Of a DNA stretch of 64,000 bases, positions 5,152 to 43,625 are shown piece after piece. Below the pieces are notes generated by a model, which saw only the letters and a list, made by a program, of their open reading frames with translations, searched no databases and was not told the DNA's origin. A program made the position numbers and the translations under genes. Origin of the DNA: Micrococcales bacterium (GTDB lineage: Bacteria; Actinomycetota; Actinomycetes; Actinomycetales; Microbacteriaceae); the NCBI GenBank assembly GCA_017306245.1, contig JAFKIY010000003.1, positions 186,001 through 250,000 of the forward strand, read 5' to 3'. The stretch's first letter is position 1, and each line of letters begins with the position of its first letter.

Positions 5152-6681
5152 ATGTCAACATTCGCATTTATGATCGTCGATACCGCCTCGGCGGTCTCGG
5201 CCTTCGGTGCGAGCACTCATGACTACGATGCGCTCACCGATGACCGGATTCTCGAGCTCGGTGCCGCCATCGCCGCCCACGAACGCGCCTTCGGTCTCGT
5301 AAAAGCCCAGCACGCCGCTCAGGTGGCTCGGCGCTCTCGCCGCGAGTTCGGTCACACGGGGCTTGCCGCCCGCAATGGGTTTGCATCCCCGCAAAAGCTT
5401 CTGCAGCAGGTCACCAAGGTCACCGCGCGGGAGGCGGGCCAGCTGGTCTCCCTGGGCAATGCCATCGGGAACGCCGAGGCCACGCGTGAGCTCCTCGACA
5501 ACGGTGTCACCCAGATCGGCGAAGTGCCTGTGGAGACGACCTGGGACGAGCCGATTTGCCAGGCAGTGACGACGGGAACGCTCAGCATCGAGTGCGCGGA
5601 CGCGCTTCGGCGCGGACTCGGCACACCGGACGGCGAGGTCACCGCGGAAAGACTGCGCGAGCTGGCAACAGAGCTCCTGGCCCGTTGCGGCGAGCTTCCC
5701 GCGGATGCGCTTTTCCAGCACGCGAGAGCCGAACGTGATCTGAACGACATCGAAGGGATCGCCGCGCGTCAGCAGGAGCAGTACCTGCAGGGCGGATTCC
5801 GCCTGTTCAGCAAAGCCAATGGCATGTACGGGTACGCCGGGCAGGCTGACCCGGAATCTGCCGCGGTACTCCTCGGCGCCCTCGACCCATTGACGAGTCC
5901 CCGCCGAGGAGGACCCCGATTCACCCGGCCCGAGGACATCGCGCGAGCGCAGGCCATAGTCGACGACCCGCGGACGACCGAGAGGATCACCCTCGACGGT
6001 CTGGTCGCTCTCGTGAAGGCCGGTGGCGGTGTCAACCCGCAGTCGATGTCGTCCGGCGACCACACCCTCGTTAAAGTGATCGTTCCAGTCAAAGCTGTCG
6101 AGACTGCGGGTGCGGACCGCCGCGGCACGGCAGCGCAAGGGTTCGGATTCATCGAGTCGACAGGTACGACAGTGTCAGTTGGCACAGCCGAAGCGGACCT
6201 GTGCGACTCAGGATGGCAGGAGGTCACTGTCGACGACTGCGGAACTCCGTTCGACGCCGGCCGCGCTCGCCGGCTGTTCGGCCGCAGACAGCGGGAGGCG
6301 CTCGCGGTGCGCGACGGCGGATGCATGTGGCCGGAATGCCCGCACCCGCCAGCGTTCACGGAGGCGCACCACATCGAGCAGTGGAAACGCGATCAGGGTC
6401 GAACGGATCTCGACAACGGAATACTGTTTTGCCGGTTCCACCACTTGCTCCTGCACAACAACCACTGGGAGCTCCGCCGCGATACCGAGGGGAGATTCTG
6501 GCTGACGCCACCTTCCGCCGTCGACCCGGATCACGTGGCCATCCTGCTCGAGAGCAAGAACCTCCTCACGCGGGCACGACAGCGAAAAAATGGCGCGAAC
6601 GTGGGCTCGAACGGGGATCCAAACATGGGACCGTTCGAGACCGGGGATCGTGCTAGGTGTTCTGCGGGAAGCCCAGGTTGA
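5152..6681 (+). CDS. DUF222 / HNH endonuclease-signature protein (13E12 repeat family)
   Basis: A 509-aa protein with an N-terminal DUF222 helical region and a C-terminal HNH motif at about residues 390-445. The motif includes CMWPECPHPPAFTEAHHI and then LFCRFHHLLLHNNHW, with paired Cys and the His-His/Asn/His set. Such genes occur in many copies in actinobacteria; nuclease activity and biological role are not established. A possible -10 TAGTTT lies at 5132-5137. It overlaps the convergent mmsA gene by 29 bp, and the overlap region contains an inverted repeat. No transposase or att site is seen, so mobility is not shown. Confidence 0.88.
   Translation: MSTFAFMIVDTASAVSAFGASTHDYDALTDDRILELGAAIAAHERAFGLVKAQHAAQVARRSRREFGHTGLAARNGFASPQKLLQQVTKVTAREAGQLVSLGNAIGNAEATRELLDNGVTQIGEVPVETTWDEPICQAVTTGTLSIECADALRRGLGTPDGEVTAERLRELATELLARCGELPADALFQHARAERDLNDIEGIAARQQEQYLQGGFRLFSKANGMYGYAGQADPESAAVLLGALDPLTSPRRGGPRFTRPEDIARAQAIVDDPRTTERITLDGLVALVKAGGGVNPQSMSSGDHTLVKVIVPVKAVETAGADRRGTAAQGFGFIESTGTTVSVGTAEADLCDSGWQEVTVDDCGTPFDAGRARRLFGRRQREALAVRDGGCMWPECPHPPAFTEAHHIEQWKRDQGRTDLDNGILFCRFHHLLLHNNHWELRRDTEGRFWLTPPSAVDPDHVAILLESKNLLTRARQRKNGANVGSNGDPNMGPFETGDRARCSAGSPG
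6606..6639. terminator. Hairpin at the HNH/mmsA convergent junction
   Basis: CTCGAACGG (6606-6614) and CCGTTCGAG (6631-6639) are perfect 9-bp arms around a 16-nt loop, inside the last codons of the HNH gene and just downstream of the mmsA stop. There is no T-run. It could act as a bidirectional terminator or mRNA-end structure. Confidence 0.4.
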
Positions 6682-19967: not shown

Positions 19968-20945
19968 GTGCCCGAACTGCCGGAAGTCGAGGTCGTGCGC
20001 GCCGGTTTGGCGCCGATCGCCGCCGGTTCGACGGTGACGCGCGTTGAGGTGCTGGACGAACGCTCGCTGCGGCGCCATCCCGGACCCGCCGAGGATTTCA
20101 TCGACCGCCTCACCGGAGCGGTGCTTGCTGCGCCATCCCGTCGTGGCAAGTTCCTGTGGCTGCCCCTCGTCGCCGTTACTCGGACCCAAATGAAGGCACG
20201 CCCTGCATTGGTCTCCGAAACGTCGGGCCCAGAATCTGCAGCGCGAGCGGGAGTGCCTTCATTTGGGTCCCAATCGGAGGCGCTCGTTGCGCATTTGGGG
20301 ATGAGCGGCCAGGTGCTCGTGCGGCCGCCAGGCGTCGACGACCTGCGCACCCGCATCCGAATCGACCTGGAGCACCCGCAGCACGGCGCGGTTCGCATCA
20401 ACTTCGTGGACCAGCGCATCTTCGGGTCGATGGCAATCGACGAGCTCGTGCCTGTCGGAGATCTGCCGACGGATGCGGCGAGAGAGCACGTCCCGGCATC
20501 CGTCGCGCACATTGCGCGGGACCCGCTCGACCCGCGCTTCGACGATGCGAAGTTCCTCGCGGCATTGCGGAGGAAGCGCACGGGCGTGAAGCGCGCGCTC
20601 CTCGACCAGACGCTCGTGAGCGGCATCGGCAACATCTATGCGGATGAGGCGCTGTGGGCGTCGCGCATCCACTACGACCAGCCCACGGATGCGCTGAGTC
20701 GCCCGCGCGCGGTCAGACTGCTCGCCGAAGTGCGCTCCGTGCTCGCGAAAGCGCTCGCCGAGGGCGGCACGAGTTTCGACACGCAATACCTGAATGTGAA
20801 CGGCGAGTCCGGCTACTTCGCGCACTCGCTGAACGCCTACGGGCAGCAGGACCGGCCGTGCCCGCGCTGCGGGCGTCCGATCATTCGCGAGCAGTTCATG
20901 AACCGGGGGAGCCACTTCTGCCCGCACTGCCAGCGCGTGCGCTGA
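19968..20945 (+). CDS. mutM: Formamidopyrimidine-DNA glycosylase with in-frame palindromic insertion
   Basis: A 325-aa bifunctional 8-oxoguanine glycosylase/AP lyase. Catalytic Pro and Glu are in MPELPEVEVVRAGL, and the C-terminal zinc finger has CPRCGRPI and HFCPHCQ. The protein is roughly 35 residues longer than usual. Between FLWLPL (about residue 65) and ALVAHLGMSGQ there is extra sequence (VAVTRTQMKARPALVSE onward) encoded by a hairpin element at 20182-20270. In known structures this lies on a surface loop between N-terminal strands, so activity may be kept. GTG start. Confidence 0.95.
   Translation: MPELPEVEVVRAGLAPIAAGSTVTRVEVLDERSLRRHPGPAEDFIDRLTGAVLAAPSRRGKFLWLPLVAVTRTQMKARPALVSETSGPESAARAGVPSFGSQSEALVAHLGMSGQVLVRPPGVDDLRTRIRIDLEHPQHGAVRINFVDQRIFGSMAIDELVPVGDLPTDAAREHVPASVAHIARDPLDPRFDDAKFLAALRRKRTGVKRALLDQTLVSGIGNIYADEALWASRIHYDQPTDALSRPRAVRLLAEVRSVLAKALAEGGTSFDTQYLNVNGESGYFAHSLNAYGQQDRPCPRCGRPIIREQFMNRGSHFCPHCQRVR
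20182..20270. repeat. In-frame palindromic element inside mutM
   Basis: GGACCCAAATGAAGGCAC (20182-20199) and its exact reverse complement (20253-20270) enclose 53 nt. It coincides with the extra 30-35 residues in MutM and keeps the frame open. The arms are less GC-rich than the gene around them. Confidence 0.85.
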
Positions 20946-20958
20946 CAGTATCGCAAAT

Positions 20959-22041
20959 TCAGGGAGCGGCAACTACCTTCTTCCAGCCCCCCGCGTAGCC
21001 GACAGCGGTGAATCCGATTGCCTCGTTGACGTCGAGCATGGGCCGATTCTCTTCCGCGTTGAACGTCAACACCGATGGGTGGCCGGGTTGCGTTTCGGCA
21101 AGGTACTGCAGGTTTGCGAGCTTGAGCAGCATCCCGATCCGGTGGCCGCGGTGCTCCTTAACGACGAGCGTGTCGTGCTGATCCACCGGCCGCTCGGCCT
21201 CGGGGGCGACGGAGAGTTCCGTGAAGCCGACAAGTGCGCCGGTCGGTACATGCTCTGCGGCGATCACGAGCATCGTGCGCGGACTCGCATCCCGCATGTC
21301 GTCGAGGGCCCGCACGCGGTCAGAGTCCCAGATCTCCTCCGTGAACTCCAGGCCCGCCCCCGGCGCGTCCGTGCTCATGCGCTGGTGGAGCAGGGCAATC
21401 CCGTCGAGCCACCGGTCAGGAGTCCGGCCTGTCCAGCGCACGAGGCGGTAGTATCTGCCCGCCGCGTGCGTTGCGGCATCGAGCGACGCCGCCAACAGCT
21501 CGGCGCCCACCGGGAGGTCGAGTCGGCTGATGCGCTCCACCTGTTCCAGCGCGAAACCCCGCGACAGCAGGAACCGGGTCTCCGGGTTGTCGAGCGGTAC
21601 CGAGCCGAAACCGGTCGGCGACGCCAATACTGCCCCGCCGTGAGTGGCCTTGTGGATGGCGAAGGCCTGCAGGTCCGTCCGTCCGCCGACCGCGCACAGC
21701 GCGCACAATCGCTCGTACAGCGCCGAACCGATTCCGCGTCCGCGGAACGCCGGCAGAACCTCGACGGAAAGCCAGGCCTCCGAGGAGTCATCCTCGATCG
21801 GCGCCTCGTATGTTCCGCGCGCGACGATCCGCCCATCCGCCCGCGCGACCAGGCAGGTTTGCGGCTGGTACGGGTTCTGCCAGTGCGGCAACAACTCTGC
21901 AGGCTCGTACGCGAGGTCGCGATTGCCGAACGTGTCGGCTTCGATCTCATTGCGCACGGTGGTCATGTCGATGAAGTCGGCGGCATCCGGCGCGTCGATC
22001 GTCGCCGGTATGACGATCTCGTCGATCGTGAAAGTGGTCAT
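20959..22041 (-). CDS. Double-GNAT-domain N-acetyltransferase
   Basis: A 360-aa protein with two GNAT modules. The first has the acetyl-CoA loop in VEVLPAFRGRGIGSALYERL (about residues 92-111), the second VVKEHRGHRIGMLLKLANL (about 305-325). The tandem layout resembles mycothiol synthase and related acetyltransferases, but flanking genes do not point to mycothiol and the substrate is unknown. The ATG at 22041 gives MTTFTIDEIVI. It converges on mutM; its stop lies in a lone AATTCAGGGAGC arm at 20955-20966. Confidence 0.82.
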   Translation of the reverse strand: MTTFTIDEIVIPATIDAPDAADFIDMTTVRNEIEADTFGNRDLAYEPAELLPHWQNPYQPQTCLVARADGRIVARGTYEAPIEDDSSEAWLSVEVLPAFRGRGIGSALYERLCALCAVGGRTDLQAFAIHKATHGGAVLASPTGFGSVPLDNPETRFLLSRGFALEQVERISRLDLPVGAELLAASLDAATHAAGRYYRLVRWTGRTPDRWLDGIALLHQRMSTDAPGAGLEFTEEIWDSDRVRALDDMRDASPRTMLVIAAEHVPTGALVGFTELSVAPEAERPVDQHDTLVVKEHRGHRIGMLLKLANLQYLAETQPGHPSVLTFNAEENRPMLDVNEAIGFTAVGYAGGWKKVVAAP

Positions 22042-22172: not shown

Positions 22173-22226
22173 TACCGTAGGGGCATGAGTTTCGTCGGGC
22201 TGAGGAGGGCACTGCGGTGTACCTGA
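22173..22226 (+). promoter_or_regulatory. smc promoter with short upstream reading frame
   Basis: A TACCGT -10 box (22173-22178) lies 6 nt before an ATG at 22185, which opens a 13-codon frame (MSFVGLRRALRCT, stop 22224-22226). This overlaps the smc GTG at 22217 by 10 bp. A GAGGAGGG ribosome site for smc lies within the small frame at 22202-22209. The layout suggests a leaderless mini-ORF coupled to smc translation. Confidence 0.45.
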
Positions 22227-25200
22227 AGAGCCTGACCCTCAAAGGGTTCAAGTCCTTCGCCCAACCCACGACGTTCGCGTTCGAACCGGGGGTCACGTGC
22301 GTCGTCGGGCCGAACGGGTCCGGCAAATCTAATGTTGTGGATGCGCTCGCCTGGGTGATGGGCGAGCAGGGCGCCAAAACCCTGCGCGGCGGCAAGATGG
22401 AAGACGTCATCTTCGCGGGCACCGCGACGAAGGGCCCGCTCGGCCGCGCGGAGGTTCTCCTCACGATCGACAATGCGGATGGCGCGCTGCCGATCGACTA
22501 CACAGAAGTGACGATCAGCCGCACCCTGTTCCGCAATGGCGGCAGCGAGTACGCGATCAACGGCGAAGCGTGCCGGCTCCTTGACGTGCAGGAACTCCTG
22601 AGCGACTCCGGCCTCGGCCGCGAGATGCACGTGATCGTCGGACAGGGCCAGCTCGACCAGGTGTTGCATGCGACGCCGGATGAGCGCCGCGGGTTCATCG
22701 AGGAAGCCGCCGGCATCCTGAAGCACCGCCGCCGCAAAGAGAAGACCGTGCGCAAACTTGAGGCGATGCAGGCGAATCTCACGCGGTTGAGCGACCTCGC
22801 CGGCGAACTCCGCCGCCAGTTGAAGCCGCTCGGCCATCAGGCGGAGATCGCGAAAGAGGCACAGTCGATCGCGGCGATCGTTCGCGACGCCCGGGCACGT
22901 ATCCTCGCCGACGATGTGGTCGCCTTGCGCGCGAGCCTCACGTCCCACGGGCGCAGCGAATCCGAACGCAAGACCGAACGCATCGTGCTGCAGGAGCAAC
23001 TCGACCAGAACAAGCTGCGCGAGCTCCACCTTGAGCAGGCCCAGCTGGGCGACGCCGTCGACATCGCGCGGCGCACCGCGTTCGGCCTCGAGTCGGTGCA
23101 GGAGCGGTTGCGCGGCCTCTTCACGCTCGCGAACCAGCGCATCGCCCTCCTCGGCTCGCAGGGCGACGAGCACACCGGCGGCGGCGGGGTCACACCCCAG
23201 CAGATCGAGGAGTCGAAAGCTGAGGCGGCGCGCCTTGCGGAGGACATCATCGAGGCGGAGTCCGCCTGGAAGGATGCCCAGCAGGCCAGTGCGCAGGCGA
23301 AGGCGAACCTCGACGCCCTCGACGAGGAACTCGCGCTTCAGGCGTCCCTTGTGTCCCGGCACGAACTCGAACTCTCCAAACTCACCGGGCAGGCCGAGAC
23401 CGCGGCGTCCCGGCTGGCGGCGGTGCGCGGGGAAGTGCTGCGTCAGCAGAACGCGATGGATGCCGCGGCTCAGCGCCGCGAAGCCGCCCAGGCCGCGTTC
23501 GCCGCCCTGGAGGAGGATGCCGGCACAGGAGCAGCGAGCGAAACCGACCTGGAGGGCGCCTACGGGGAGGCTCAGGCGGAAGTGACGGCTGCGGAAGCGG
23601 AGATCGAGCGGCTCCGGGAAACCCTGCACGACCACGAACGGGAGCGCTCGGCACTGACCGCGCGCACGAGCGCCCTGTCCAGCGCTCTCGACCAGAAGGA
23701 CGGGTCGAGTGCGCTCGTGGAGCGGAAGCTGCGGGGGATCCGCGGGCTCCTCGCCGAACACCTCCAGGTGCAGCCTGGTTTCGAAGCGGCGATCGCCGCG
23801 GCGCTCGGATCTCTTGCCGATGCCGTGCTTGCCGACAACCGCGACGCTGCCGTCGCGGCGGTGGATCAGGCGAGAGCCGAAGAACTCGGTCGGGTCGACG
23901 TTGTGCTTGCGGATGATGCCGGACCCGCAGACGCGGCCGCCCCGAGCGACGGTCTCCCGAAATCGCTCCCGACCGGCGCCGTTCCGGCGTCGTCCGTGGT
24001 CACCGCCCCGCCAGGAGTTCTCGGCATCCTCGCCAAGGTGATCATCGCGGAGGACCTCGGAGTCGCGCGCACCGTCTGGAAATCGCTCCAGAACGCCTCG
24101 ACCGTCACCATCATCACGAAGGCCGGCGATGTGCTCAGCCGCTACGTCCTCCGCGGAGGCTCCGGCGCGAAGCGCTCCCGCGTCGAACTCATCGCCGACC
24201 GGGACGCCGCGCAGGAGCGGCTCGCCGAGGTCGCCGAGCTCATCGAGTCGGCGAAGGCCGCGCTGGACGGGCAGCGCGCCGTGCACGATGACGCGAAGCA
24301 GCGTGCAACGGCCGCGCTCGCCGCACTGCGAGACTTCGACGCCCAGCTGGCCGCGAGCACGGAGAAGCTCAGCCGCGCGCGAGCCCAGGTGGAGGCCGCG
24401 GCAGCGGAATCCGAGCGGATCGAGCGCGGCCTCGCCCTCGCGACGGATGCCGTCGCAGAGGCCGTCCAGGCATCCGAGGCGGCCGTCACGGAGCTGGAGG
24501 CGGCGCAGTCGAGGCCGAAACCGATGTTCGATGCTTCGGCGAGGGATGGGCTTTCGGACGAGCTCGATGCGGCGCGGGAACGAGAAGTTGAGGCCCGTCT
24601 GCAGGTGGAGACCGCCAGGGAGCGGGTGCGGGCCGAGGAGGCGCGGGGCCACGATCTGGCCCGCCAGTTGGAAGACGAACGCGCCGCGGCGCAGGAAGCC
24701 GCCCGGCGCGCCGTCATCCGTCGGCACCAGCTGGAGTCGGCGCAGAGGGTGATCGACGCTCTGCCGTCCGTGCTGGATGCGGTCGACCGATCCGTCACCC
24801 AGGCGAGGGTGGAACTCGCGGCGCGCGAATCCGAGCGGCTGAAACAGAACGAGGAGCTGGCCGAGCTTCGCCGCGACGAAGCATCGCTGCGCGAGCGGCT
24901 AACCGCCGTGAGCGAGACGGTGCACGGGCTCGAGATGCAGATTTACGAGAAGAAACTGCACTTGTCGAGCCTGCTGGAGCGCGCAGGCGAGGAACTCGGG
25001 CTCGTCGAGGATGTGCTCGTCGCCGAGTACGGCCCCGACGTGCCGGTTCCCGCCGACCCGGCAGCATCCGATCATTCCACCGATACGGAAATTCAGGAAT
25101 CTGCGTCAGAGCCTCCCGCAAACACCGGGGAGCCGGACGAGGAAAGTACCGAAGTTCCTGAATTTCCACCAACCGGAACACCGTACGTGCGGGCGGAGCA

Positions 25201-25855
25201 GGAGGCCCGGCTCGCGAAGGCGGAGCGCAAGCTCGCCCAGCTCGGCCGCGTCAATCCGCTCGCGCTGGAGGAGTTCGAAGCGCTCGAGCAGCGCCACAAG
25301 TTCCTGACCGAGCAGCTCACCGACCTCACGAACACCCGCAAAGACCTTCTCACGATCATCGACGACATCGACGGGAGGATGCAGGACATCTTCTCCAGCG
25401 CGTTTGAGGACACGAAGGCGGCGTTCAACGAGGTCTTCCCCGTGCTGTTCCCTGGAGGCACCGGCACAATCCTGCTCACCGAGCCGGACAATCTGCTGAC
25501 GACCGGCATCGAGGTCACGGTGAAACCGGCCGGCAAGAAGATCGAGCGCCTCTCCCTGCTGAGCGGCGGCGAGCGGTCCCTCGCCGCGGTCGCCCTGCTC
25601 ATCGCCATCTTCAAAGCGCGCCCGAGCCCGTTCTACATCCTCGATGAGGTGGAGGCCGCCCTCGACGACGCGAACCTGGGCCGCCTGCTCACCGTGCTGG
25701 AGGAGCTGCGCGTCAACTCGCAACTCATTGTCATCACCCACCAGAAGCGCACGATGGAAATCGCGGATGCCCTGTACGGCGTCTCGATGCGCCAGGACGG
25801 GGTGAGCGCTGTCGTCGGCCAGCGCGTGTCCCACGAGGAACGCACGTCAGCATAG
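22217..25855 (+). CDS. smc: Chromosome segregation ATPase SMC
   Basis: A 1212-aa condensin subunit. Walker A GPNGSGKSN is at 31-39 and the N-terminal head includes VIVGQGQLDQVLHATPDERR. Long coiled coils flank a hinge at about residues 500-640, and the C-terminal head has LSGGERSLAAVALL (about 1112 onward) and Walker B PFYILDEVEAALDD. Start GTG 22217 has a GAGGAGG site. Residues about 950-990 form a Ser/Pro/Glu-rich non-helical segment (part of it STDTEIQESASEPPANTGEP) before the distal coil. It coincides with an inverted repeat and is unusual for SMC. Confidence 0.97.
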   Translation: MYLKSLTLKGFKSFAQPTTFAFEPGVTCVVGPNGSGKSNVVDALAWVMGEQGAKTLRGGKMEDVIFAGTATKGPLGRAEVLLTIDNADGALPIDYTEVTISRTLFRNGGSEYAINGEACRLLDVQELLSDSGLGREMHVIVGQGQLDQVLHATPDERRGFIEEAAGILKHRRRKEKTVRKLEAMQANLTRLSDLAGELRRQLKPLGHQAEIAKEAQSIAAIVRDARARILADDVVALRASLTSHGRSESERKTERIVLQEQLDQNKLRELHLEQAQLGDAVDIARRTAFGLESVQERLRGLFTLANQRIALLGSQGDEHTGGGGVTPQQIEESKAEAARLAEDIIEAESAWKDAQQASAQAKANLDALDEELALQASLVSRHELELSKLTGQAETAASRLAAVRGEVLRQQNAMDAAAQRREAAQAAFAALEEDAGTGAASETDLEGAYGEAQAEVTAAEAEIERLRETLHDHERERSALTARTSALSSALDQKDGSSALVERKLRGIRGLLAEHLQVQPGFEAAIAAALGSLADAVLADNRDAAVAAVDQARAEELGRVDVVLADDAGPADAAAPSDGLPKSLPTGAVPASSVVTAPPGVLGILAKVIIAEDLGVARTVWKSLQNASTVTIITKAGDVLSRYVLRGGSGAKRSRVELIADRDAAQERLAEVAELIESAKAALDGQRAVHDDAKQRATAALAALRDFDAQLAASTEKLSRARAQVEAAAAESERIERGLALATDAVAEAVQASEAAVTELEAAQSRPKPMFDASARDGLSDELDAAREREVEARLQVETARERVRAEEARGHDLARQLEDERAAAQEAARRAVIRRHQLESAQRVIDALPSVLDAVDRSVTQARVELAARESERLKQNEELAELRRDEASLRERLTAVSETVHGLEMQIYEKKLHLSSLLERAGEELGLVEDVLVAEYGPDVPVPADPAASDHSTDTEIQESASEPPANTGEPDEESTEVPEFPPTGTPYVRAEQEARLAKAERKLAQLGRVNPLALEEFEALEQRHKFLTEQLTDLTNTRKDLLTIIDDIDGRMQDIFSSAFEDTKAAFNEVFPVLFPGGTGTILLTEPDNLLTTGIEVTVKPAGKKIERLSLLSGGERSLAAVALLIAIFKARPSPFYILDEVEAALDDANLGRLLTVLEELRVNSQLIVITHQKRTMEIADALYGVSMRQDGVSAVVGQRVSHEERTSA
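25087..25167. repeat. In-frame palindromic element inside smc
   Basis: GGAAATTCAGGAA (25087-25099) and TTCCTGAATTTCC (25155-25167) are perfect 13-bp arms around 55 nt. The whole is 81 bp, exactly 27 codons, and encodes a low-complexity Pro/Glu/Ser segment at about residues 957-984. The core AATTCAGG is shared with the hairpins at 27982 and 38004. Confidence 0.8.
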
Positions 25856-25864: not shown

Positions 25865-27091
25865 GTGACCGATACCGAGGCACTGCAGAAGCGTGTCGTT
25901 CGCGTTCTTGTCGCCGCGCAGATCCTCGGCGGAATCGGCCTCGGCGCCACGGTTTCGGTCGGTGCGCTCCTCGCCTCCGAGGTGAGCGGTTCCCCTGCGT
26001 GGTCCGGGATGGCCGCGACCATGAGCACTCTGGGTGCTGCGCTCATCGCGGTGCCGCTCGCCCGCACGGCCGTCGCGAGGGGACGGCGCGTCGCTCTGGC
26101 TCTCGGATCGATTGTCGCAGCGCTCGGCGCCGTGCTGGCGACCGCTGCGGCGGCGATCGGATCGTTCCCCGTGCTGCTTGTCGGGCTGGCTCTCGCCGGG
26201 GCCGGATCCGCCACGAACCTTCAGGCGCGCTTTGCGGCGACCGACCTGGCCCAACCTCTGCACCGCGGGCGCCAGCTGTCGCTCGTGGTGTGGTCGACGA
26301 CCATCGGAGCAGTGCTCGGCCCCAACCTCATCGACCCGGGGGAAGCGATCGGTTCCGCGATCGGACTTCCGACGCTGACCGGGCCGTTCGTCTTCACGGT
26401 GGCGGCGCAGATCGCCGCCATGCTCGTCTACTTCTTCGGGCTTCGGCCGGACCCGCTTCTGACCGCGCTCAAGAGTGCGCCTCCGCGGGAGGGGGCACCG
26501 CCGCGGCACGGCTTCGCGACCCTGCGCGTGAACCCGCTCGCCAGGTACGCCGTCGTCACGGTGGCGTTCAGCCACTCCACCATGGTCGCGATGATGTCGA
26601 TGACGCCCGTGCACCTGTACGGGCACGGAGCGACTCTGTTCATCGTGGGGTTCGCGTTGAGCCTCCACATTGCCGGGATGTTCGCGCTCTCGCCCGTGTT
26701 CGGGTGGCTTTCGGACCGGTGGGGACGGGTGCCGACGATCCTGTTCGGCCAGAGCGTGCTCGTGGTCTCCCTGCTTACCGCGTGGATCGGTGCCGAGTCG
26801 CAGCCGCTCGTCGTGGTGAGCGTCATCCTTCTGGGCATCGGCTGGTCCGCGTCGACGATTTCCGGTTCCGCCCTCGTGGCCGAATCCGCGGAAATCGATG
26901 ACCGCGCGGGACTGCAGGGGGTCTCGGACCTGTTGATGAACTCGACCGCGGCAGTGTTCGGGGCGCTCGCCGGGCCGGTTCTCGCCGTGGTCGGCTATTC
27001 GGGTCTTGGCGTGGCGTGCCTGCTGCTCGTCGCCGTCGTCACCGTGTGGTCGCTGCGGCACCTGGCCACTCCGGTCCCCGTCGCCAGCTAG
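25865..27091 (+). CDS. MFS transporter
   Basis: A 408-aa major facilitator protein with about 12 hydrophobic helices. It has the loop motifs RRVALALGSIVAALG and GWLSDRWGRVPTILFG (the D-R-x-G-R type loop 8-9 motif). The substrate cannot be assigned; drug or metabolite export is typical for this group. It sits between smc and ftsY with its own leaderless promoter. Confidence 0.88.
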   Translation: MTDTEALQKRVVRVLVAAQILGGIGLGATVSVGALLASEVSGSPAWSGMAATMSTLGAALIAVPLARTAVARGRRVALALGSIVAALGAVLATAAAAIGSFPVLLVGLALAGAGSATNLQARFAATDLAQPLHRGRQLSLVVWSTTIGAVLGPNLIDPGEAIGSAIGLPTLTGPFVFTVAAQIAAMLVYFFGLRPDPLLTALKSAPPREGAPPRHGFATLRVNPLARYAVVTVAFSHSTMVAMMSMTPVHLYGHGATLFIVGFALSLHIAGMFALSPVFGWLSDRWGRVPTILFGQSVLVVSLLTAWIGAESQPLVVVSVILLGIGWSASTISGSALVAESAEIDDRAGLQGVSDLLMNSTAAVFGALAGPVLAVVGYSGLGVACLLLVAVVTVWSLRHLATPVPVAS

Positions 27092-27094
27092 GAT
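27089..27094 (+). promoter_or_regulatory. -10 box TAGGAT, leaderless start of ftsY
   Basis: TAGGAT ends 7 nt before the ATG at 27102, overlapping the MFS stop codon (TAG). No ribosome site is seen. Confidence 0.6.
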
Positions 27095-27101
27095 CGCTGG
27101 C

Positions 27102-27980
27102 ATGGCTGAGCACGCACAACCCTGGTCGCTCGGGGGCTCGCTCCGCGGCATGTTTTCCAGGAAAACCATTGACGACGAGACGTGGGATGACCTGGAGGAT
27201 GCCCTGATTTCCGCCGACTTCGGACCGGACATCACCGACTCCGTCGTGGCGGAGTTGCGCGCCAGCGTCGAGCGTTTTCGCACAACTGACCCCGCTGACT
27301 TGAAGCGGATGCTGCGCGAAAGCCTTGAGGAACGGCTGGCCCGCCTGGACCCGACGCTGCGCCTGACCGCCAGGCCCGCCGTCGTGCTCGTCGTCGGCGT
27401 GAACGGAGTCGGCAAGACGACGACGATCGGCAAGTTCGCGAAGTTCCTCGCGAATCACGGCCGCAGCGTCGTGGTGGGCGCGGCAGACACGTTCCGGGCC
27501 GCCGCCGTCGAGCAGCTCGCCACGTGGGCGGAGCGCGGGGGCGCGCAGATCGTGAAACCGCAGGCGCAGGGCCAGGATCCGGCGTCCGTGGCGTTCCAGA
27601 CGGTCGAGAAAGCTCAGCGCGAAGGCATCGACATCGTGCTCATCGACACGGCGGGGCGCCTGCAAACCAAGAGCGGCCTCATGGATGAGCTCGGCAAGAT
27701 CCGGCGCGTGATCGAAAAGCAGACCGAGATCGCCGAGGTGCTGCTCGTACTGGATGCGACAACCGGGCAGAACGGGCTCGCGCAGGCGCAGGCGTTCATC
27801 GAGCACGCCGGGGTGACCGGCCTCGTGCTCACGAAGCTGGACGGTTCGGCGAAGGGCGGTTTCGTGCTCGCCGTGCAGGAGAAGACCGGCATCCCGATCA
27901 AACTCGTCGGCCAGGGCGAAGGCATCGGCGACCTCACCGGGTTCACCCCGCACGTGTTCGTTCAGAACCTCGTCGGCTAG
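27102..27980 (+). CDS. ftsY: Signal recognition particle receptor FtsY
   Basis: A 292-aa SRP receptor GTPase. It has an N domain (about 1-85) and a G domain with GVNGVGKTTTIGK (about 101-113), the insertion box ADTFRAAAVEQL, DTAGRLQTKSGLMDEL and TKLDGSAKGG. It lacks the long acidic A domain of E. coli FtsY, as usual in actinobacteria. It docks Ffh-bound ribosomes at the membrane. The ATG at 27102 is favoured by the leaderless promoter. Followed by a long hairpin. Confidence 0.97.
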   Translation: MAEHAQPWSLGGSLRGMFSRKTIDDETWDDLEDALISADFGPDITDSVVAELRASVERFRTTDPADLKRMLRESLEERLARLDPTLRLTARPAVVLVVGVNGVGKTTTIGKFAKFLANHGRSVVVGAADTFRAAAVEQLATWAERGGAQIVKPQAQGQDPASVAFQTVEKAQREGIDIVLIDTAGRLQTKSGLMDELGKIRRVIEKQTEIAEVLLVLDATTGQNGLAQAQAFIEHAGVTGLVLTKLDGSAKGGFVLAVQEKTGIPIKLVGQGEGIGDLTGFTPHVFVQNLVG

Positions 27981-27981
27981 G

Positions 27982-28076
27982 GTTCGCAATTCAGGCTATT
28001 TCGTGATTGAAGCCAATTGAGTCCAATATTTGCGGCAATCTGTGGAGGTCGTGACGATCTCGCCTGAATTGCGAAC
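27982..28076. terminator. Long inverted repeat at the ftsY/carbonic anhydrase convergent junction
   Basis: GTTCGCAATTCAGGC (27982-27996) and its perfect reverse complement GCCTGAATTGCGAAC (28062-28076) enclose 65 nt of AT-richer sequence. It fills the spacer right after the ftsY stop and just after the stop of the opposite gene. Probable bidirectional terminator; it carries the AATTCAGG core. Confidence 0.65.
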
Positions 28077-29575: not shown

Positions 29576-31168
29576 ATGGCCACATTCGGAAACCTCACCG
29601 ACCGCCTCACCGATGCGTTCAAGAAACTGCGCGGCAAAGGCAAGCTGACCCCTGCGGATGTTGACGGTACTGTCCGCGAGATCCGGCGCGCCCTGCTCGA
29701 CGCGGACGTCGCCCTCGATGTTGTGAAGGACTTCACAGCCCGTGTGCGCGAGCGCGCCCTTGGCGACGAGGTCAGCAAGGCGTTGAATCCTGCACAACAG
29801 GTCGTGCAAATCGTCAACGATGAACTCGTCAGCATCCTCGGCGGGCAGCAGCGCCGGCTCGAGTTTGCGAAGAACCCGCCCACCGTCATCATGCTCGCCG
29901 GCCTCCAGGGCGCGGGCAAGACGACCCTTGCCGGAAAACTCGCCAAATGGCTCGCGGGTGAGGGGCACACCCCGATGCTCGTCGCGGCGGACCTCCAGCG
30001 GCCGAATGCGGTGACCCAGCTTCAGGTTGTCGGCGAGCAGGCGGGCGTTCCGGTCTGGGCGCCGGAGCCCGGAAATGGAGTCGGCAACCCGGTGAAGGTC
30101 GCGAAGGATGGCGTGAAGGAGGCGCAGCGCCGCCAGTACGACACGGTCATTGTCGACACGGCCGGCCGCCTCGGCGTCGACTCCGAACTCATGAAGCAAG
30201 CCGCGGACATCTGTAAGGCGGTCAGCCCTGACGAGGTACTGTTCGTGATCGACGCCATGATCGGCCAGGATGCGGTCACCACGGCGAAGGCGTTCCAGGA
30301 CGGCGTGGACTTCACGGGTGTCGTGCTCACGAAACTCGACGGCGATGCGCGCGGTGGTGCCGCGCTGTCGGTCGCCTCGGTAACCGGCCGACCGATCATG
30401 TTCGCGAGCACGGGCGAAGGTCTCGGCGATTTCGAGCCGTTCTACCCGGATCGCATGGCGAGCCGCATCCTCGATCTCGGCGACATCCTCACCCTCATCG
30501 AGCAGGCGCAGAAGACCTTCGACGAGGAGGAGGCGAAGAAGGTTGCGGAGAAGTTCGCGACCGACACGTTCACGCTCGAGGATTTCCTCGCGCAAATGCA
30601 GCAGCTCAAGAACATGGGTTCTATCAAGGGCATGCTCGGGATGCTGCCCGGCGCAAAGGGGATGCGCGAGCAACTCGACAACTTCGATGAACGCGAGATT
30701 GTGCGCACCGAGGCGATCATCCAGTCGATGACGCCGGCGGAGCGGCGCATGCCGAAGCTGCTGAACGGCTCACGGCGCCTGCGGATCGCGAAGGGCTCCG
30801 GCATGACGGTAACTGAGGTCAACGCGCTCGTGAACCGGTTCGAGCAGGCGGCGAAGATGATGAAGACTGTCGCGAAGGGCGGAGTTCCGCAAGTGCCCGG
30901 TATGGGGCCGATTCCCGGCGCCGGATACGCGGGCGGCGGCAAGAAGAAGCAACAAAGGAAGAAGGGTTCGCGGTCCGGCAACCCGGCCAAACGCGCGGCG
31001 GAGGAGGCGGCGCTGGCAGCGGCGCCGAAGACGTCTGTCGCCGCAGGATCGGGATTCGGTCTCGGATCCGCCGGCCAATTCGGCTCCGGTGCCGCCGGTG
31101 ATCCCGATGCGAAGGGCGGCCCAAGCGAGGAAGAACTCGCGGCCCTCCAAAAGTTCCTCGGTCGCTAA
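29576..31168 (+). CDS. ffh: Signal recognition particle protein Ffh
   Basis: A 530-aa SRP54 GTPase. The NG domain has GLQGAGKTTLAGK (about 111-123), DTAGRLGVDSELM and TKLDGDARGG. The M domain (about 300-440) has the Met/Gly-rich finger loop MGSIKGMLGMLPGAKGM and the RNA-binding SGMTVTEVNALVNRF. A Gly/Ala-rich C-terminal tail follows. It binds 4.5S RNA and signal peptides and hands them to FtsY. A TAAGCT -10 box lies 9 nt before the ATG. Confidence 0.97.
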   Translation: MATFGNLTDRLTDAFKKLRGKGKLTPADVDGTVREIRRALLDADVALDVVKDFTARVRERALGDEVSKALNPAQQVVQIVNDELVSILGGQQRRLEFAKNPPTVIMLAGLQGAGKTTLAGKLAKWLAGEGHTPMLVAADLQRPNAVTQLQVVGEQAGVPVWAPEPGNGVGNPVKVAKDGVKEAQRRQYDTVIVDTAGRLGVDSELMKQAADICKAVSPDEVLFVIDAMIGQDAVTTAKAFQDGVDFTGVVLTKLDGDARGGAALSVASVTGRPIMFASTGEGLGDFEPFYPDRMASRILDLGDILTLIEQAQKTFDEEEAKKVAEKFATDTFTLEDFLAQMQQLKNMGSIKGMLGMLPGAKGMREQLDNFDEREIVRTEAIIQSMTPAERRMPKLLNGSRRLRIAKGSGMTVTEVNALVNRFEQAAKMMKTVAKGGVPQVPGMGPIPGAGYAGGGKKKQQRKKGSRSGNPAKRAAEEAALAAAPKTSVAAGSGFGLGSAGQFGSGAAGDPDAKGGPSEEELAALQKFLGR

Positions 31169-37311: not shown

Positions 37312-38022
37312 ATGCGCATCGACATCGTCACGATCTTCCCGGAGTTCTTTTCCGCGCTCGATGTGTCGCTGCTGGGCAAGGCGCGCGAGTCCGGCCTGAT
37401 CGAGCTTGCCGTCCACGACCTGCGCGATTTCACGCACGATCGGCACCGCAGCGTCGACGACACCCCCTACGGCGGCGGCGCTGGCATGGTCATGAAACCC
37501 GAACCGTGGGGCTATGCCCTCGACAGCATCCTCGATCCGCTCCCTGAGGAGCGCGAAGCGCGTCTCGAAGGGTGCCCGACGATCATCTTCCCGTCGCCCG
37601 CCGGCGAGCTGTTTACTCAGGCAATGGCGCAGGAACTTTCCGCCGAACCTCACCTGATTTTCGGTTGTGGCCGCTATGAGGGCATTGATGAGCGGGTGTT
37701 CGAGTATGCGGCGTCGCGCGCGCGGGTGCGTCTCGTGAGCATGGGCGATTACGTTCTGAATGGCGGAGAGGTAGCGACGATGGCGATGATCGAGGCGATC
37801 GGCCGACTGATTCCCGGCGTGGTCGGCAACCCGCAGAGTCTCGTCGAGGAGTCGCACAGTGACGGGCTGCTCGAATATCCGAGCTACACGAAGCCGGCAG
37901 AGTGGCGCGGACTCGAGGTGCCGCCCGTCCTCCTGAACGGCAACCACGGTGCGATCGCCGCGTGGCGCCACGAGCAGCAGCTCGAACGCACGAGGCGCAT
38001 CCGCCCCGACTTGCTTTCATAA
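37312..38022 (+). CDS. trmD: tRNA (guanine-N1-)-methyltransferase TrmD
   Basis: A 236-aa SPOUT methyltransferase making m1G37 in tRNA. It has the knot region [38 protein letters not shown] and the C-terminal [18 protein letters not shown], all conserved. Length typical. The stop codon lies within the left arm of a very long inverted repeat. Confidence 0.97.
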
Positions 38023-38133
38023 TTCAGGAGGTTGTGTGGCAAAAGTTACCAGGGTGATTGCTTCCGGGGTCTTCTGATCGGGAAACCTCATGCGCCACAC
38101 CACCTCCTGAATTATGAAAGCTAGAAGTCGGGG
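38004..38133. terminator. Very long inverted repeat at the trmD/map convergent junction
   Basis: The left arm (38004-38040) and right arm (38093-38133) pair over about 36 bp with one mismatch and a 3-nt bulge. The best block is CTTTCATAATTCAGGAGG against CCTCCTGAATTATGAAAG. The loop is 52 nt. It starts within the trmD 3' end and stops 1 nt before the map stop codon. It carries the AATTCAGG core shared with the ftsY and smc repeats. Confidence 0.75.
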
Positions 38134-43529: not shown

Positions 43530-43555
43530 GTGCACAGGACTTCGCTGACTACTCA

Positions 43556-43625
43556 ACCATGACGGGGTTTGTTCCTCGAGACGGCGAACGTTCTGGCTCC
43601 TGAGGTACAAACTCCGTCATGGTTA
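43556..43625. repeat. 70-bp near-perfect palindrome downstream of the cupin gene
   Basis: Two 35-nt arms abut at 43590/43591 with no loop. The outer 18 bp (AACCATGACGG-G/A-GTTTGT) match with a single mismatch and the centre is GAACGTTC. It lies in the 229-nt spacer between the cupin gene and yraN, which contains no other feature. Terminator or mobile palindrome. Confidence 0.7.

Follow-up and report, generated by a model that had tools for sequence, protein, structure and literature searches.

The window, a 64 kb stretch of a Microbacteriaceae genome, carries mutM (formamidopyrimidine-DNA glycosylase) at 19968–20945 on the forward strand, a gene of 325 aa with a GTG start whose frame is unbroken across a palindromic element. 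The left arm of this element (20182–20199, forward strand, GGACCCAAATGAAGGCAC) contains the motif CCCAAATGAAGG common to the other elements of what we call family A in this genome. The right arm (20253–20270, reverse strand, GTGCCTTCATTTGGGTCC) is its inverted copy, and the intervening core (20200–20252, forward strand) is unrelated to that of any other copy in this genome. Read directly, the arms are perfect complements 53 nt apart, and they lengthen to 22 nt if one mismatch is allowed; the perfect 18-bp arms, spacing and in-frame position of the original prediction are therefore confirmed by the direct reading and the open frame. From AAT to ATT the copy measures 75 bp, a multiple of three, and it would be translated as a tolerated linker (QMKA...VPSF). 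With up to three mismatches, the 17-mer arm has two matches in the window, both of them the mutM pair, against 0.12 expected. A lone arm-like sequence (CGCAAATTCAGG) lacking a partner lies just past the mutM stop (20950–20970) and is possibly a decayed copy.

The stretch from FLW to LGMSG comprises 53 residues in this MutM versus 20–23 in insert-free relatives, so the insert adds about 30–33 residues; the extra residues predicted earlier are thus real, the relatives being shorter, although they number somewhat fewer than the 35 or so proposed. Thirty matched sequences of solved MutM/Fpg structures have 256–283 residues, and the alignment to the best of them, 1l1t, breaks at the insert point, between RRGKFLKFLL and DALISHL. 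This alignment suggests a position for the element at a turn that connects two strands. The surface-loop placement put forward in the original prediction agrees with it and rests on it, as the single-sequence structure prediction of this MutM reached a pLDDT of 35. A core taken from the target gene was considered and rejected for mutM, since the entire stretch is extra relative to the relatives.

Alignment of mutM from relatives (designated by G numbers; G000 is the present genome), which had been proposed as a check, recovered copies free of the insert as well as copies with a palindrome of different arms in the same loop. The closest relative, G006, has the same element, with 51 of 55 core bases identical at the matching site, and G002 has A arms around a different core. 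The palindromes in G001 and G003 have GCAGGAGAT arms and that in G029 has GGAAATTCAGGA arms; the G029 arm (CTTTCGGAAATTCAGGA) is also the arm found next to one of that genome's nuclease genes, as discussed later. The loop is empty in G005 and most genera. Other repeated sequences occupy the same loop in the mutM of G036 and G027 (L137 and L144), which belong to other genera, and the loop therefore appears to be a general insertion-tolerant spot. Either it is a tolerant site struck by several arm families, or an old insertion has had its arms changed later. In a comparison of mutM and smc cores, same-gene similarity is weak (0.47–0.51) and cross-gene pairs reach up to 0.59, so that core similarity does not favor either reading.

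Element families and their turnover

The mutM copy is not alone, as the genome search for its arms called for earlier has made clear: the genome contains 11 family-A pairs with CCCAAATGAAGG arms, each spanning roughly 80 bp as measured from CCAAATGAAGG to CCTTCATTTGG. The same arm pattern read backwards, used as a control, gave 0 pairs genome-wide, which excludes a chance origin of the pairs. A search for sister families with AATTCAGG arms found 8 pairs, including one in smc and one in purH. In the window itself there are four elements, all in different arm families. Besides the family-A element in mutM, these are a family-B element with GGAAATTCAGGAA arms, in frame in smc (gene 22217–25855) at 25087–25167; a third-family element with GTTCGCAATTCAGGC arms at 27982–28076, intergenic and directly past the stop of gene 27006–27980; and a fourth-family element with GCTTTCATAATTCAGGAGG arms at 38010–38124, all three on the forward strand. 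The left arm of the last provides the TAA stop of gene 37312–38022, which by eye we take to be TrmD-like. Ranked by strength, the top five inverted repeats of such size in the 64 kb include four from these families; the fifth (43555–43624, AACCATGACGGGGTTTGT) falls outside the arm families and could represent a terminator or a different repeat. An arm pair at 29719–29799 and a single arm at 6449 were taken as chance because the coding sequence containing them translates into ordinary-looking protein (presumably Ffh-like and HNH-like, respectively, judged by eye). Rfam gave no match anywhere in the window, and an RNA family was rejected on this ground.

The smc gene of G001 contains an element of another arm type. 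The purH element of the present genome, a family-B copy in frame at G000:C1:240243-240317 (L123:1501-1575), has same-site counterparts in G006 and G002. Palindromic elements of Rickettsia (RPEs) are palindromes of about 100 bp translated in frame within housekeeping genes, and their copies are conserved over the full length; we know of no partner nuclease for them. The original prediction likened the mutM insertion to these elements, and the likeness holds for in-frame coding position: a single reading frame (EIQE/QMKA...PxF) is common to the copies in mutM, smc and purH, whose lengths are all divisible by three, as would be expected of protein-coding palindromes selected for translatability and spreading through coding genes. 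It fails in other respects, since most copies are intergenic, often with AAT-to-ATT lengths of 73, 74 or 76, their cores are unconserved, and the arm families flank a winged-helix DUF559 nuclease gene. The intergenic majority and the free core largely refute a Rickettsia-type origin, which we regard as highly improbable, and for the same two reasons we do not class the mutM element as an RPE.

The cores of the A copies in this genome are unrelated to each other, with no core common to different loci, and core swapping among loci was rejected on that account. The sites themselves are polymorphic between close species. Using the flanks as a guide, we located empty counterparts of C1:33626, C1:237654, C1:324020 and C3:120983 in G006, and of C7:135103 and C13:135997 in G002. 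No target-site duplication was seen at these sites, where the sequence beside the empty site is diverged and no clean junction can be defined. At ten sites where G006 retains the element, changes number 0 among 200 arm positions and 75 among 568 core positions. Exact-arm searches are biased toward intact copies; for this reason, arm constraint was assessed by this same-site comparison and, in addition, in G415, where 14 copies were gathered by overall similarity rather than by exact arm. In these copies the arms are changed at 1 of 420 positions, while core divergence is 16% and flank divergence 27%. The G415 copies also show that the unit copied is longer, flanks included, and has an outer stem, and their sequences point to a recent dispersal and multiplication of the element. 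In a single case, the element at 27982, the arm is altered in G006; the matching nuclease was not found in the present genome.

Ordinary MITEs, that is, relics of DNA transposons with CCAAATGAAGG-like terminal inverted repeats that are moved by an unrelated classical transposase and have the nuclease genes as passengers, would likewise be short, have inverted ends and be present or absent at given sites, and G415 provides dispersed copies with common cores in one genome. However, the arms in the present genome are found just in closely spaced pairs and never at the ends of a longer element, and a search allowing three mismatches to the 17-mer recovered no decayed copies there. Arms are kept while cores and flanks diverge, and one nuclease family adjoins many arm types across host families. 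We therefore consider MITEs an unlikely explanation.

A linked family of AbiEi-like nucleases

The lead to a partner gene came from G005, in which a gene lies between two element copies. It belongs to a family of proteins of about 300 aa with an AbiEi-like winged-helix N-terminal region and a C-terminal DUF559/MTES_1575 Vsr-like nuclease region. PADLOC AbiEi models match 19 of 20 members, Pfam DUF559 is found in 15 and MTES_1575 in 17 of the 20, and residues E195, D221, E231, H238 and D247 are invariant across the 20 nuclease sequences; public annotation labels relatives of the protein as AbiEi. For one member, an AF2 model (pLDDT 83.6) gave structural matches to AbiEi (6y8q) and to the catalytic domain of I-Bth0305I (3r3p), with Foldseek values against 3r3p of TMt 0.76–0.77 and prob 1.00. 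By its modeled catalytic fold and its conserved acidic and histidine residues, the partner is an EDxHD/Vsr-like nuclease, predicted to cleave DNA.

Three members of the family are encoded in the present genome. One gene (G000:C1:229359-230228) lies between two A copies (229222–229301 and 230310–230389), the second adjoins a B copy, and the third adjoins a further arm type (GTGTTGTGCAGGACAT). Nuclease genes are likewise flanked by copies of their own family in G005, in G006 (A and B) and in G415, and the third-family (GTTCGCAATTCAGGC) and fourth-family (GCTTTCATAATTCAGGAGG) arms of the window each flank nuclease genes in G002 and G004. In Microbacteriaceae, a palindrome was found within 300 bp at 20 of 26 nuclease loci (P = 6e-8), with a density of 2.12/kb within 300 bp of the nuclease genes versus 0.06/kb at 300–1200 bp, a 35-fold difference. 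The class-wide sample gave 16 of 24 loci (1.39 versus 0.05/kb, P = 6.5e-7), and a further locus set 9 of 11. The same arm was present on both flanks at 10 of 30 nuclease loci versus 1 of 520 control windows, and arm similarity tracks the identity of the nuclease proteins (Mantel r = 0.38, 0 of 5000 permutations). Some 20–30% of nuclease loci have no palindrome nearby, and in G001, a 94% complete draft with 14 matching copies, no nuclease was found even by profile search. Overall, proximity, the both-sides test and the arm-protein correlation establish a strong linkage that reaches beyond Microbacteriaceae within the class.

AbiEi antitoxins are DNA-binding repressors, and the paired arms might accordingly be operators, the elements being host regulatory or chromosome-architecture sites used by the AbiEi-nuclease or another protein and retained for their service to the host, with movement rare or historical. 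The conserved arms at shared sites, the fixed spacing and the many copies near gene ends, one of them upstream of groES, would suit such a role. It is at odds with flanking genes that have no evident common function, gain or loss between close species, the copies within mutM, smc and purH, and the recent multiplication of a longer unit, flanks included, in G415, and we judge it improbable.

A probable REPIN-like repeat with a different partner

We consider it probable that the palindrome in mutM represents a solitary member of a REPIN-like dispersed repeat family, partnered by a winged-helix EDxHD/Vsr-like nuclease rather than by a RAYT (TnpA-REP) transposase. REPIN/RAYT systems (PMC3116915, PMC8049555) resemble the present elements in having inverted, highly conserved arms about 70–110 bp apart, a diverse spacer of constrained length, hairpin-forming sequences, and a dispersed, mostly extragenic distribution. 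In both, a genome can hold several classes of arm, every class lying close to a partner gene of its own, and the repeats persist for long periods and form tandem copies locally. By contrast, the partner here is a winged-helix protein with a Vsr-like nuclease domain; the Y1/HUH transposase (PF01797) was found in 0 of 9 element-bearing genomes, with E. coli and four other controls positive. Families comprise about 10–20 copies rather than hundreds, and in-frame coding copies are present. Because the architecture matches closely but the partner enzyme differs, we call the elements REPIN-like, not REPINs.

The partner also differs from its own relatives. Its modeled catalytic domain has the fold of EDxHD homing endonucleases (I-Bth0305I) and of Vsr, and I-Bth0305I acts as a dimer on a long target (PMC3943268), but here an AbiEi-type winged helix is fused to that domain, and the putative targets are dispersed palindromes, not one homing site in a cognate allele. 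Similarly, it resembles the AbiEi antitoxins of type IV toxin-antitoxin systems in its N-terminal region and fold, but bears a C-terminal nuclease domain.

Paired arms, fixed length, dispersed copies, presence or absence between close species, a nuclease gene beside or between copies of its own family, and far stronger conservation of arms than of cores are directly established; from these we infer mobilization of the elements by the nuclease. An element would consist of two inverted, family-specific recognition arms of about 18 bp at a set distance with a free core, and each arm family would be paired with its own two-domain protein gene. A dimer of this protein may bind both arms, one winged helix per arm, so that the nuclease domains meet above the core, which would explain a fixed length with a free core sequence. 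Such an arrangement fits a dimer on a long target by analogy with I-Bth0305I, which forms a dimer on a target almost 60 bp long (PMC3943268). Nicking or cutting at the core might then drive copying to new places and also help to hold the arms uniform. Against this, the palindromes flanking the nuclease genes might serve an AbiEi-type autoregulator as operators and have spread for unrelated reasons.

Accompanied by a gene for a DNA-binding nuclease of its own, the repeat family seems to be a mobile or self-maintaining system of a kind not described before. In the open-access literature we found no paper tying DUF559 or AbiEi-nuclease proteins to palindromic repeats; most subscription papers lay outside this search. 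REPINs have been described, to the knowledge of the authors concerned, as the sole population of sequences that prokaryotic genomes maintain stably (PMC8049555). We see an even balance for the broader proposal that bacteria harbor a second class of long-lived intragenomic replicators, evolved independently and consisting of palindromic arm pairs that a winged-helix/EDxHD nuclease copies and keeps uniform; these would be widespread in Actinomycetes, with arms that co-evolve with the nuclease. If true, a REPIN look-alike with an unrelated nuclease would mean that this lifestyle has more than one origin; it would also assign a function to an annotation frequent in actinobacteria (AbiEi/DUF559 proteins) and supply many natural arm-nuclease pairs for reading recognition rules.

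Among public genomes, A arms occur at 78 loci in Salinibacterium, Cryobacterium, Microcella, Yonghaparkia and other Microbacteriaceae, to which they are essentially limited (L092 and L101 are isolated outside matches), and they are present in 9 of 400 sampled Microbacteriaceae genomes. IMG/VR viral contigs yielded 0 elements and no nuclease, and phage records no nuclease; a viral origin was rejected accordingly. Two pairs of elements are identical in two species that have diverged widely at their remaining sites (G000:C4:54535 / G002:C59:11683 and G000:C11:323 / G002:C113:10387), reflecting either recent exchange or assembly contamination; many of the genomes compared are drafts. In Salinibacterium sp. 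G-O1 (L067, L068, L116, L122), close duplicates of elements are separated by about 150–300 bp and have cores that are similar or almost identical. Another type of palindrome, whose arms (ATAACTCCTGCA) look reversed, occurs at L072:622-720, L116:2485-2576 and L230, once near a nuclease gene, and the GGTTGAGTAGCGC-armed palindromes at L045:4383-4527 and L048:6809-6931 probably represent a separate repeat family.
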